Shown here: in pieces, positions 11,309 through 14,605 of the stretch
Numbering within the stretch: position 1 is the first letter of the stretch
How the letters are laid out: every line of letters starts with the position of its first letter
DNA from: Plantactinospora soyae
Lineage (GTDB): Bacteria; Actinomycetota; Actinomycetes; Mycobacteriales; Micromonosporaceae
Reading direction: 5' to 3'
Length of the DNA: 64,000 nucleotides
NCBI RefSeq assembly: GCF_014874095.1
Contig: NZ_JADBEB010000001.1
Location: forward strand, 744,001-808,000
Notes under the pieces: generated by a model
Database searches by the model: none
Seen by the model: only the letters and a program-made list of their open reading frames with translations
Told to the model about the DNA's origin: nothing
Made by a program: the position numbers and the translations under genes

Positions 11309-13714
11309 TCAGAGTTTGTCGATCGGGGCGTGCCGGAGCACGAGCCAGAGCGTCTGGTCGCCGAAGTCGATCTGCGCCCGTGCGCCCGGACCGTGTCCCT
11401 CGACCGCGAGCACCCGGCCGAGGCCGTACCGCTGGTGGTTGACCCGATCCCCGACCACGACCTTCGGGGCCTGCGGCAACTCGCTCGCCGTGGTCAGTCG
11501 GCTGCCGTCCACGCCGAGTCGCTGGGCGAGCTGCGCGGCCCTGGGGGTCCCGCCGCTGAAGCCGCCACCCCGGTAGCCCCCGGACCGGTCCCCGCCCCCG
11601 GACCGGCCGCCGACGCCGCCACCGGTGCCCGACCACGACGTGTACGCGGCCCCGGTGCGCTCCCAGCGGACCAGGTCCTCCGGCAACTCGTCGACGAACC
11701 GGGACGGCGGGTTGTAGGACGGCTGGCCCCAGGCCGACCGGGTGACCGCGCGGGACAGGTAGAGCCGCTGCCGCGCCCGGGTGATCCCGACGTACGCCAG
11801 CCGGCGCTCCTCCTCCAACTCGCGGGTGTCGCCGAGCGCGCGCAGGTGCGGAAAGACGCCGTCCTCCAGGCCGGTCAGGAACACCACCGGGAACTCCAGG
11901 CCCTTGGCGGTGTGCAGCGTCATCAGGGTGACCACGCCCTGGTGGTCGGGGTCGTCCGAGGGGATCTGGTCGGCGTCGGCGACCAGCGCCACCTGCTCCA
12001 GGAAGCCGGCCAGGGTGGCACCGGGGTCGCCCTCCTCGGCCAGCGCCTCCACCCGCTCGGTGTACTCCCGGGCGACGCTGACCAGTTCCTGGAGGTTCTC
12101 CACCCGACCCGCGTCCTGCGGGTCGAGGCTCTCCTCCAGTTCACTGAGATAGCCGGAGCGGGTCAGTACCGCCTCCAGCACCTCCTCCGGCAGCGCCGTG
12201 GCGGCCATCTCGCGCACCCCGTCGAGCAGGGCGACGAACTCGGCGATCGCGTTCGCGGACCGGGTGGAGATGCCCGGTGCCTCGGACGCCCGGCGCAGTG
12301 CCTGGCCGAACGAGACCCGGTCCCGGGTCGAGAGGGCCTCCACGCAGGCCTCGGCGCGGTCCCCGATACCCCGCCGTGGGGTGTTGAGGATGCGCCGGAT
12401 GCTCACCGTGTCGTCGTCGTTGACCACGGCGCGCAGGTAGGCCAGGGCGTCCCGGACCTCCTTGCGCTCGTAGAACCGCACCCCGCCGACGACCTTGTAC
12501 GGCAGTCCGACCCGGATGAACACCTCTTCGAAGACCCGGGACTGGGCGTTGGTGCGGTAGAAGACGGCCACGTCACCCGGGCGGGCCTCGTCGGCGTCAC
12601 CGAGCCGGTCGATCTCCCGGCCCACCCAGTCCGCCTCGGCGTGCTCGGTGTCGGCGACGTAGCCGACGATCTGCTCGCCCGCGCCCTCCTCGCTCCACAG
12701 CCGCTTCGGCTTGCGCGAGGTGTTGTTGTCGATGACCGCGTTGGCCGCGTTCAGGATCGTCTGGGTCGACCGGTAGTTCTGCTCCAGCAGGATGGTCCGG
12801 GCGTCGGTGAAGTCCCGCTCGAACTCCAGGATGTTCCGGATCGTGGCGCCCCGGAACGCGTAGATCGACTGGTCGGCGTCACCGACCACGCAGAGCTCGG
12901 CCGGTGCGATGCCGGGCGTGCCGCCGACCAGCTCCTTCACCAGCGTGTACTGCGCGTGGTTGGTGTCCTGGTACTCGTCGACGAGGACGTGCCGGAACCG
13001 TCGGCGGTAGCTCTCCGCGACGTGCGGGTGCGACTGGAGGAGATGCACCGTCGCCATGATCAGGTCGTCGAAGTCCAGCGCGTGCGCCTCGACGAGCCGC
13101 TGCTGATAGCGGGTGTACGCCTCGGCGAGCGCCCGCTCGTTCGGCCCGCTCGCCCGGGCGGCGAACGTCTCCGGGTCGACCAGTTCGTTCTTCAGGTTGG
13201 ACACCTGGGCGGTCAGTCCCCGGGCCGGATAGCGCTTCGGGTCCAGGTCGAGTTCCCGGGTGACGAGCTGCATCAGCCGGCGCGAGTCGTCGGCGTCGTA
13301 GATCGAGAAGGTCGACTTCAGCCCGGCGTGCTCGTGCTCGGCCCGCAGGATGCGTACGCAGGCGGAGTGGAACGTCGAGACCCACATCAGCCGGGCCCGG
13401 GGACCGACCAGTGCGGAGACCCGGTCCTTCATCTCCCCGGCCGCCTTGTTGGTGAAGGTGATCGCGATGATCTCCCCGGGATGTACGTCCCTGGCGGCGA
13501 GCAGGTACGCGATCCGGTGGGTGAGCACCCGGGTCTTGCCCGAGCCGGCACCGGCCACGATGAGCAGGGGCGAGCCGGAATGGGTCACCGCGTCCCGCTG
13601 GGGCCCGTTCAGCCCGTCCAGCAGGGCCTGCGGGTCGAGGCCCGACGGGCGGCGCCGGGGCGGATCCTGGGTCGGCGGGACGTGGGGCGGCGGGGGTTCG
13701 AAGAGAGCATGCAT
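11309..13714 (-). CDS. pcrA: ATP-dependent DNA helicase UvrD/PcrA (UvrD1)
   Basis: This 801-residue superfamily 1A 3'-5' helicase acts in nucleotide excision repair and replication restart. Visible motifs are Walker A AGAGSGKT (~residues 54-61), motif Ia ITFTNKAAGEM, motif II DEYQDTN, motif III GDADQSIYAFRGA, motif IV LEQNYRS, motif V LMTLHTAKGLEFP and motif VI VGITRAR. A Gly/Ser-rich linker (GGGVGGRSGGGDRSGG) leads to a C-terminal Tudor-like region (VGDRVNHQRYGLGRVLAVEG) that in homologues binds RNA polymerase. The -10-like TAGACT at 13724-13729 leaves almost no leader, so the mRNA may be nearly leaderless. It is divergent from chorismate mutase, as Rv0949 is from Rv0948c. Confidence 0.96.
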   Translation of the reverse strand: MHALFEPPPPHVPPTQDPPRRRPSGLDPQALLDGLNGPQRDAVTHSGSPLLIVAGAGSGKTRVLTHRIAYLLAARDVHPGEIIAITFTNKAAGEMKDRVSALVGPRARLMWVSTFHSACVRILRAEHEHAGLKSTFSIYDADDSRRLMQLVTRELDLDPKRYPARGLTAQVSNLKNELVDPETFAARASGPNERALAEAYTRYQQRLVEAHALDFDDLIMATVHLLQSHPHVAESYRRRFRHVLVDEYQDTNHAQYTLVKELVGGTPGIAPAELCVVGDADQSIYAFRGATIRNILEFERDFTDARTILLEQNYRSTQTILNAANAVIDNNTSRKPKRLWSEEGAGEQIVGYVADTEHAEADWVGREIDRLGDADEARPGDVAVFYRTNAQSRVFEEVFIRVGLPYKVVGGVRFYERKEVRDALAYLRAVVNDDDTVSIRRILNTPRRGIGDRAEACVEALSTRDRVSFGQALRRASEAPGISTRSANAIAEFVALLDGVREMAATALPEEVLEAVLTRSGYLSELEESLDPQDAGRVENLQELVSVAREYTERVEALAEEGDPGATLAGFLEQVALVADADQIPSDDPDHQGVVTLMTLHTAKGLEFPVVFLTGLEDGVFPHLRALGDTRELEEERRLAYVGITRARQRLYLSRAVTRSAWGQPSYNPPSRFVDELPEDLVRWERTGAAYTSWSGTGGGVGGRSGGGDRSGGYRGGGFSGGTPRAAQLAQRLGVDGSRLTTASELPQAPKVVVGDRVNHQRYGLGRVLAVEGHGPGARAQIDFGDQTLWLVLRHAPIDKL

Positions 13715-13828
13715 CGCCTGGCGAGTCTATGCCGCCGGGCGGACAACCCACGCCTCCGCTCGCCGCACCCGGCGTACTCCGGAACCGGCCGGGCACCGGC
13801 GAATGTCGTCCCAGGATCGCCAAGTCGC

Positions 13829-13858
13829 TTGCCAAGGGCCTCGCCGGCTGGGCATACT
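13829..13858 (+). promoter_or_regulatory. Promoter of the leader peptide / chorismate mutase transcript
   Basis: TTGCCA (13829-13834), an 18-bp spacer and CATACT (13853-13858) form a good sigma70-type promoter. The predicted start is about 13865, which coincides with the GTG of the leader ORF, making the transcript leaderless. Confidence 0.6.
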
Positions 13859-13864
13859 CGGGTC

Positions 13865-13933
13865 GTGATCCATCGGGTGCTGCCTTACTTTTTCTACGGC
13901 TCCGGAAGTCCGGCAGCCGTGGGTCGCGCCTGA
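13865..13933 (+). CDS. Candidate aromatic leader peptide (22 aa, Tyr-Phe-Phe-Tyr), leaderless
   Basis: GTG at 13865 opens a 22-codon frame, VIHRVLPYFFYGSGSPAAVG plus two residues, ending with TGA at 13931-13933. The codons at 13886-13897 are TAC TTT TTC TAC, a Tyr-Phe-Phe-Tyr run, in the leader of a chorismate mutase gene whose products are precursors of exactly these amino acids. There is no Shine-Dalgarno, but the promoter predicts transcription starting at the GTG. A hairpin (GGCTCCGG...CCGGCAGCC, 13898-13918) follows the aromatic codons, and an 18-bp terminator stem follows the stop. This is the architecture of ribosome-mediated attenuation. I could not resolve a convincing antiterminator by eye. 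Confidence 0.6.
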   Translation: MIHRVLPYFFYGSGSPAAVGRA

Positions 13934-13943
13934 ACATGACCTA

Positions 13944-13980
13944 CGAAAAGCCCCGGGCTCCTGGAGCCCGGGGCTTTTCG
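13944..13980 (+). terminator. Strong terminator hairpin in the chorismate mutase leader
   Basis: CGAAAAGCCCCGGGCTCC (13944-13961) pairs perfectly with GGAGCCCGGGGCTTTTCG (13963-13980), an 18-bp stem around a single unpaired base. The A-run and U-run in the arms make it bidirectional. It lies between divergent genes and 45 bp upstream of the chorismate mutase start, so it must end a short leader transcript; an attenuator is the simplest reading. Confidence 0.85.
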
Positions 13981-14025
13981 CATCGGGATCCGGGCACCGG
14001 GGACCTATCTCCCAAGGAGGACCCC

Positions 14026-14343
14026 ATGGCGACAGAGGTCGCGGAGCAGCCCGTCGAGTCGACCGGCGCCGGCATCCAGACCGGGACGAGCGAGCCGGAC
14101 GCCGCACAGCACATTCTCGGGCTGCGGGAGCGGATCAACGAGATCGACCACGAACTGATCGCCCTCTGGCAGGAGCGTGCCGCCCTGTCCCAGCAGGTCG
14201 GCAGGACCCGGATGGCCTCCGGTGGCACCCGACTCGTACTGTCCCGCGAGCGCGAGATCCTGGACCGGTTCCGCGAGGCGCTGGGCGCGGACGGCACCCA
14301 GCTCGCCCTCCTGCTGCTGCGGGCCGGTCGCGGCCCGCTCTGA
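14026..14343 (+). CDS. aroQ: Chorismate mutase, AroQ-delta type
   Basis: This 105-residue all-helical enzyme converts chorismate to prephenate, the branch point to Phe and Tyr. The sequence matches the actinobacterial AroQ-delta class (Rv0948c): LRERINEIDHELIAL, then RTRMASGGTRLVLSRERE and a C-terminal LLLRAGRGPL. Likely active-site residues are Arg34, Arg51, Arg62, Arg74 and Glu75, by analogy. In this class the C-terminus docks on DAHP synthase, which activates the mutase. The start is ATG 14026, five bases after AAGGAGG. The gene is preceded by a candidate Tyr/Phe leader peptide and terminator. Position divergent from pcrA is conserved in mycobacteria. Confidence 0.95.
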   Translation: MATEVAEQPVESTGAGIQTGTSEPDAAQHILGLRERINEIDHELIALWQERAALSQQVGRTRMASGGTRLVLSREREILDRFREALGADGTQLALLLLRAGRGPL

Positions 14344-14368
14344 GCCGCCACCAGCGCGACGCGACGCC

Positions 14369-14476
14369 GACTCCGGAGGTAACCCCGATCCTGGAGGTAA
14401 CCCCGATCCCGGGGGCATCGCCGAATCCGGGGGCATCGCCGATCCCGGAGGTGTCGCCGAGCCCGGGAGCATCGCC
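14369..14476. repeat. Six tandem 18-bp repeats downstream of chorismate mutase
   Basis: Six 18-bp units run from 14369 to 14476, e.g. GATCCTGGAGGTAACCCC, GATCCCGGGGGCATCGCC and GATCCCGGAGGTGTCGCC. Because the unit is a multiple of three, every frame encodes a six-residue repeat, but no frame has a proper start. I treat it as a non-coding minisatellite in the 262-bp gap between chorismate mutase and the peptide ABC operon; nothing else is evident there. Confidence 0.8.
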
Positions 14477-14605
14477 GACAAGGCCCGGACGCGAGCCCGG
14501 GACGCCGGCCGCATGGATGGCGGCCCGCGCCCCGGGCAATGAGGAGGCGTTCTACTTCCACCGGTGGTCAGGCCGGGTCAGGCCCACCACCGGCGCCTGA
14601 GTGGT

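Follow-up and report, generated by a model that had tools for sequence, protein, structure and literature searches.

The pheL leader of Escherichia coli has a Shine-Dalgarno sequence, and aroR of Corynebacterium glutamicum, an FYF leader, was reportedly found to be leaderless by Neshat in 2014. In E. coli, the Phe codons of pheL precede pheA, whose product has a chorismate mutase part (passages of PMC11802643). This system is gamma-proteobacterial and its enzyme is bifunctional, unlike actinobacterial aroQ. The nearest precedent is aroR, which is likewise actinobacterial, ribosome-mediated and furnished with Phe/Tyr codons. It is described in a section of PMC11802643 as an attenuator before aroF that responds to Phe and not to Tyr, and the FYF leader of C. 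glutamicum aroF is also named in a passage of PMC4046766. The target gene is different: aroR stands before aroF, which encodes DAHP synthase, whereas the leader described here stands before aroQ, and a separate aroF leader is found in the same genome. In Streptomyces lividans, the leaderless trpL, leuL and ilvL precede biosynthetic or tRNA-ligase genes, several of them with terminator-like hairpins, and the list of eight leaders in that part of the paper includes none for Tyr/Phe or chorismate mutase (PMC8079986). A 2005 survey of RNA control in Actinobacteria states that upstream of operons for phenylalanine or tyrosine no conserved RNA structures had been seen (PMC1262725). Among the matches listed in a search of the open-access literature, none reported an attenuator on an actinobacterial chorismate mutase or a similar Tyr/Phe leader there. 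The author of an earlier note on this DNA, who labelled the enzyme AroQ-delta, was not aware of such a description.

Judged by sequence tests, the element before aroQ is a real, widely conserved leaderless Tyr/Phe attenuator. Very probably it works as a ribosome-mediated transcription attenuator with a leaderless leader peptide, by a mechanism that we infer. In the window (the whole 64-kb stretch of DNA analysed), all of its parts lie on the plus strand. A motif scan finds TTGCCA-18-CATACT (13829..13858) as the sole sigma-70-like site within 13700-14100 (shuffled sequences: mean 0.0, sd 0.1). Six nucleotides downstream of its -10 box, at the predicted +1, GTG 13865 opens a leader ORF of 22 codons plus a TGA stop (MIHRVLPYFFYGSGSPAAVGRA; 13865..13933), and the putative sensor codons TAC TTT TTC TAC (Tyr Phe Phe Tyr), marked by their conservation, follow one another at 13886..13897. 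Segment 1 (UACGGC.CCGG, 13895..13905; folding and alignment covariation) forms the 5' side of a 1:2 hairpin, the 3' side of which belongs to segment 2 (CCGG..GCCGUG, 13910..13921; folding and alignment). Segment 2 also provides the antiterminator strand (13905..13913; covariation), for which the consensus is GGAGUCCGG and the window copy reads GAAGUCCGG, with one A-C mismatch in the 2:3 pairing. Segment 3 (13944..13960) is the 5' arm of the terminator, with the antiterminator partner CCGGGCUCC at 13953-13961, and segment 4 (13964..13980) is the 3' arm with a short U tract; both were placed by folding and covariation. An apical antiterminator strand, GUGGGUC (13919..13925), is supported in Micromonosporaceae only, and the alignment of this family gives its partner as GACCUAC (13938..13944), the stop codon being within the loop. 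The folding energy of the RNA from 13865 to 13990 is -74 kcal/mol (z = -7.13 vs. 200 dinucleotide shuffles).

The Shine-Dalgarno sequence of aroQ, AAGGAGG (14014..14020, from the sequence), is found 33 nt beyond the terminator, and no TAnnnT hexamer occurs in the window sequence between the terminator and the gene. The aroQ gene (14026..14343) encodes a chorismate mutase (CM_2 in Pfam, TIGR01808 and NF005894 of NCBIfam, above the cut-offs of both), and its best named match is from P. alkalitolerans (90% identity over residues 1-92 of AroQ), as expected for a Plantactinospora-like genome. The divergent pcrA/uvrD-type helicase gene on the minus strand (11309..13714, by protein domain match) is a neighbour only. 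Directly after aroQ, at 14368-14480, short GC-rich direct repeats resembling CGGGGGCATCGCCGA were seen by eye.

The promoter, the GTG, the 22-codon ORF with its aromatic run, and aroQ with its own AAGGAGG are thus all located where the earlier note had put them. Its first hairpin exists too, but with an extent of about 13895-13921, for which 13898-13918 was too short. The terminator-like stem was correctly located at 13944-13980, but it has 17 bp (13944-13960 with 13964-13980) and not 18, and what had been called a U-run is merely four T (CTTTTCG). A terminator scan did not call this stem because it demands five.

In the mechanism we propose, the GTG or a base next to it would be the start of transcription, and a ribosome would initiate on the 5' end of the RNA without a Shine-Dalgarno sequence. 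During a shortage of charged Tyr-tRNA or Phe-tRNA, it would wait on the aromatic codons and cover segment 1 (UACGGC). Segment 2 would then be free, its antiterminator strand could pair with its partner in the 5' arm of the terminator, and this 2:3 pairing would block the terminator and allow aroQ to be transcribed. When the tRNAs are charged, the ribosome would reach the stop codon inside the antiterminator loop, hairpin 1:2 would re-form or be covered, and the 3:4 stem would end transcription ahead of aroQ.

The loci used for comparison (L001-L111) are the best protein matches in the genus, the family and a named genome collection and not a random sample; some species appear twice, and 30 loci were kept from 298 matching genomes of 300 and 80 of 110. 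Besides the window itself, 110/111 fetched aroQ-type loci carry the leader (109 at first; L040 was added at a looser setting), in 90 distinct sequences. A second chorismate-mutase-like gene of the window's own genome, 65% identical (L002, G000:C1:6098150), is without it. Alignment, which the earlier note had proposed as a check, finds the aromatic codons and the helices kept along with the leader. We worked with two alignments, A1, which holds 80 distinct leaders, and A3, which was made with MAFFT and holds 56 rows across families; the 80 of A1 and 40 further ones in A3 make up a set of 120 distinct leaders.

In every member of this set, a NANNNT hexamer precedes the in-frame start codon with a gap of 6 nt (38 leaders) or 7 nt (82 leaders), and in 85 of them the hexamer is CATACT. 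When the 40 nt upstream were shuffled, such a hexamer was found in a mean of 8.1 of the 120 leaders and at most in 13. The start codon is GTG in 113 cases and ATG in 7, and an SD-like sequence stands ahead of it in 2/120. This is the arrangement of a leaderless leader, i.e. a -10 box 6-7 nt before the start and no Shine-Dalgarno sequence, and the aroQ leader transcript is accordingly predicted from its sequence to start at or next to the GTG.

Chorismate mutase supplies Phe and Tyr, not Trp (passages of PMC11802643). Its leaders contain Phe in 120 and Tyr in 119 of the 120 cases, and Trp codons in none of the 120; they are thus short ORFs with codons for the end products of the pathway, as in an attenuator. 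If the last TAC is taken as codon 0, this codon is Tyr in 119/120 leaders, and codon -2 is Phe or Tyr in as many (TTT 111, TAC 4, TAT 3, TTC 1; GGC 1). Codon -1 is aromatic in 109/120, its letters varying among TAC, TTT and TTC, and aromatic residues are found at codon -3 in 84/120 and at codon -4 in 64/120. Hence, the aromatic run and its frame, the loss of which the earlier note had named as evidence against its reading, are conserved. The putative sensor codons are rare synonyms, namely TTT in the aroQ and aroF leaders and TAT in the aroF leaders; in five genes of the window TTT accounts for 1/53 Phe codons.

Within Micromonosporaceae, the helices of A1 are 96 to 99% paired, and most of the clear covariation falls in the lower part of the terminator (at columns 74/103, A-U 62, C-G 11, U-A 3). 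The antiterminator strand is almost invariant in this family and shows no covariation beyond shuffles there (0.072 vs. 0.074 shuffled, 469/500 shuffles). Across families, in A3, the antiterminator 2:3 is paired in 90.1% of cells vs. 81.4% in shuffles with a covariation score of 0.256 vs. 0.123, hairpin 1:2 in 85.4% vs. 81.5% with 0.140 vs. 0.085, and terminator 3:4 in 89.1% vs. 80.1% with 0.220 vs. 0.089; for each of them 0/500 shuffles scored as high, a figure that is not a probability because the shuffles leave relatedness in. One pair of 2:3 is G-C in 22/56 rows and C-G in 17/56, and columns 18/34 of 1:2 are C-G in 24/56 and G-C in 19/56. Pairs changed on both sides were not above shuffles in A3 (322/500 for 2:3, 125/500 for 1:2 and 57/500 for 3:4), and pairing is weak towards the inside of hairpin 1:2 (31/56 rows paired at columns 22/29 and 36/56 at columns 20/31). 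When the partner strand was slid, both the paired percentage and the score dropped for each helix. The RNAalifold structure of A3 contained the outermost five pairs of 1:2 together with eight of 3:4. On the covariation scores, the leaders thus have the mutually exclusive pairings 1:2, 2:3 and 3:4, with the other measures mixed.

Inspection by eye shows concerted changes in segment 2 and the terminator arm: the Micromonosporaceae consensus strand goes with its partner there, and GGACUCCGG goes with CCGGAGUCC in many leaders of family f15. The apical stem GUAGGUC:GACCUAC finds no support outside Micromonosporaceae. The putative terminator is a strong stem with a short U tract; within the 8 nt that follow its final G-C pair, 94/120 leaders have at least 4 T and 60/120 an unbroken run of four. 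The earlier note had held that its reading would suffer if no homologue could form a competing antiterminator. Such an antiterminator exists, pairs with the 5' arm of the terminator and covaries across families, and together with the conserved aromatic run it supports the interpretation as a Tyr/Phe attenuator at the level of sequence.

These data also bear on two other explanations. The terminator could be constitutive, ending transcription early by default and leaving a fixed low level of aroQ by read-through, with the aromatic codons incidental. The stem is indeed among the most invariant parts of the element. However, codon -1 changes its letters and yet stays aromatic in 109/120 leaders, and the 2:3 helix, which would be of no use to a plain terminator, covaries, so that we consider this explanation very unlikely. 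Even less probable, in our view, is a functional or arrest peptide that acts through its own sequence and not as a codon sensor. Its tail, GxGSPAAVGRA, is very constant in Micromonosporaceae, but it varies from family to family (GTRTPAPVDR, GHRDPVSVTAG, GYRSAVPVGI, GTGPSGCHGRAA) while the aromatic codons stay, and the constancy of the tail within a family therefore probably follows from the RNA pairing.

For the ribosome-mediated attenuator, the positions of a stalled ribosome were compared in a folding scan. The mask covered the RNA as far as 13 nt beyond the first base in the A-site codon, a footprint that is an assumption, and a leader was scored as positive if its terminator 5' arm paired, with a probability >0.5, with any upstream RNA, and not with the antiterminator strand alone, at a stage when the 3' arm has yet to be made. 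For an A site on codon -2, -1 or 0, the arm was held by upstream RNA in 56/56 leaders. The value was 93% at codon -3, 34-59% at codons -10 to -4, and no more than 29% at codon +1 and beyond. Shuffled upstream RNA passes in 71% of trials vs. 100%, and the evidence is therefore the position of the peak and not its height. Changing the footprint edge moves the peak by about one codon: an edge of +15 lowers the value for codon 0 to 68% in A3 and 62% in A1, and one of +11 raises that for the Gly codon +1 to 93% and 76%, respectively. In other families (L203 and L206 excluded), the peak is clean at codons -2 to 0 for f46, f50 and f36, each represented by a single leader. For f33 and f31 the arm is also held when the A site is far upstream of the aromatic codons, and for f8 when it is downstream of them as well. 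The geometry fits a ribosome that would wait on the aromatic codons.

A covariance model, R1, built from the 80 leaders of A1, has matches in 249/397 genomes of the order and in 59/86 genera (E up to 1e-3). Forty matches, including 7 in the window's own family, were fetched from the stronger part of the list (E no higher than about 5e-7); 39 lie on the same strand directly before aroQ, and the 40th piece is too short to show this. Micromonosporaceae, the group that the earlier note had named, is too narrow, as R1 matches occur across the order and fetched examples come from beyond it. A pcrA gene was seen next to aroQ in 28/40 of the distant stretches; it is divergent in 23 of these and has the orientation of aroQ in the other 5. 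Least likely of all is a bidirectional terminator separating divergent pcrA and aroQ units, which would suit the nearly symmetrical stem and the divergent pcrA of the window, but the stem sits between the aroQ promoter and aroQ, and the leader is still kept before aroQ in L150, L152, L156, L158 and L162, where pcrA is downstream of aroQ on the same strand.

A known RNA family (T-box, trp leader and others) was also considered for this element and rejected. Rfam gave 0 matches over the window, and the 9 matches listed for 12 related loci were all below the gathering score.

A second model, R2, was applied class-wide and has matches in 123/394 genomes, in which real and chance hits are mixed. 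From these results 40 stretches were chosen by hand (39 from the class search and 1 from a search of the own genome), the best hits together with some weaker ones. Of these, 20 hold aroQ, 6 a DAHP synthase gene (called by the N-terminus, with Pfam run on 2), 2 thrS-like genes and 12 nothing relevant, and 123/394 is therefore not a count of attenuators. The aroQ-bearing stretches include 9 of family f33, with leaders like MQQLTFVFTYGTGPSGCHGRAA, and 4 of f8 (VLSWQRRFFYGYRSAVPVGI), a family in which aroQ is present in 4/7 fetched stretches. From abundance and protein resemblance, we presume that f33 is Streptomyces and f8 Mycobacteriaceae. In the window's own genome, R1 and R2 find one strong copy, at aroQ; the other hits are its reverse strand and weak ones, the best of which (E 0.01) is a threonine-codon leader ahead of a thrS gene.

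In this genome aroF, which encodes the type I DAHP synthase, has a leader of its own, VTRSYRWFSQPASEPVTRP (L238; G000:C1 about 282298-282357, some 130-190 bases upstream of the aroF start at 282489). This leader includes Tyr, Trp and Phe codons, and a terminator-like hairpin comes after it. It starts 7 nt past TATGGT and is thus predicted to be leaderless. A similar leader was found in 30/30 of the best aroF loci of the family (a match was present in 38/61 genomes searched). These leaders contain Tyr and Phe in 30/30 each, counts that are partly due to construction because the script required an aromatic residue a few codons before Phe. Trp is found in 26/30, and neither this count nor the choice of codons was built in. 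Tyr is encoded by TAT in 30/30 cases and Phe by TTT in 32/33, and the aroF genes themselves use TAT in 1/147 and TTT in 3/146. A stall scan of 25/30 aroF leaders, the other 5/30 having been dropped because a crude parser gave no terminator for them, did not reveal a mechanism of the aroQ type; the arm was freest near the aromatic codons. In family f31, six stretches hold DAHP synthase, and five of them (L201, L202, L204, L213 and L236) carry TTT TGG TAT (Phe Trp Tyr) in leaders that resemble the aroQ leader, with the leaderless start not parsed in 2/5.

Other genes were inspected as well. In L218, from the window's own genome (G000:C1:2929698), a leader read by eye as MRSANETTTPGDPGVPH has Thr codons in succession and stands ahead of a thrS gene, which matches TIGR00418 with an E of 4e-82, below the cut-off because the piece is partial. 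This leader recalls thrL of S. lividans, as described in a passage of PMC8079986. The gene in L217 is thrS-like by resemblance. By eye, pheA has an apparently leaderless start and no leader. No aromatic leader was found upstream of the class II DAHP synthase gene, and a crude scan beside trpE gave a single Trp-rich ORF about 780 nt upstream.

In summary, the aroQ leader represents a known kind of attenuator on a new target gene, with a possible pathway-graded codon logic. DAHP synthase catalyzes the step that feeds all three aromatic amino acids, and chorismate mutase belongs to the Tyr/Phe branch; the aroF leader with Tyr, Trp and Phe codons in the same genome suggests that leader codons are matched to the position of the enzyme in the pathway. 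The chances seem to us about equal for and against a graded, class-wide control in Actinobacteria that has been missed so far, in which leaderless Tyr/Trp/Phe leaders act on DAHP synthase and Tyr/Phe-only leaders on chorismate mutase, with rare synonymous codons as sensors. Several families of the order have the element itself ahead of chorismate mutase, as do fetched examples from further families of the class (f33, f36, f46 and f50). Actinobacteria are a group rich in aromatic-derived natural products, and the attenuator would provide them with a simple link between the charging of Tyr- and Phe-tRNA and a branch-point enzyme. Furthermore, it would add a widespread case of leaderless translation serving regulation.
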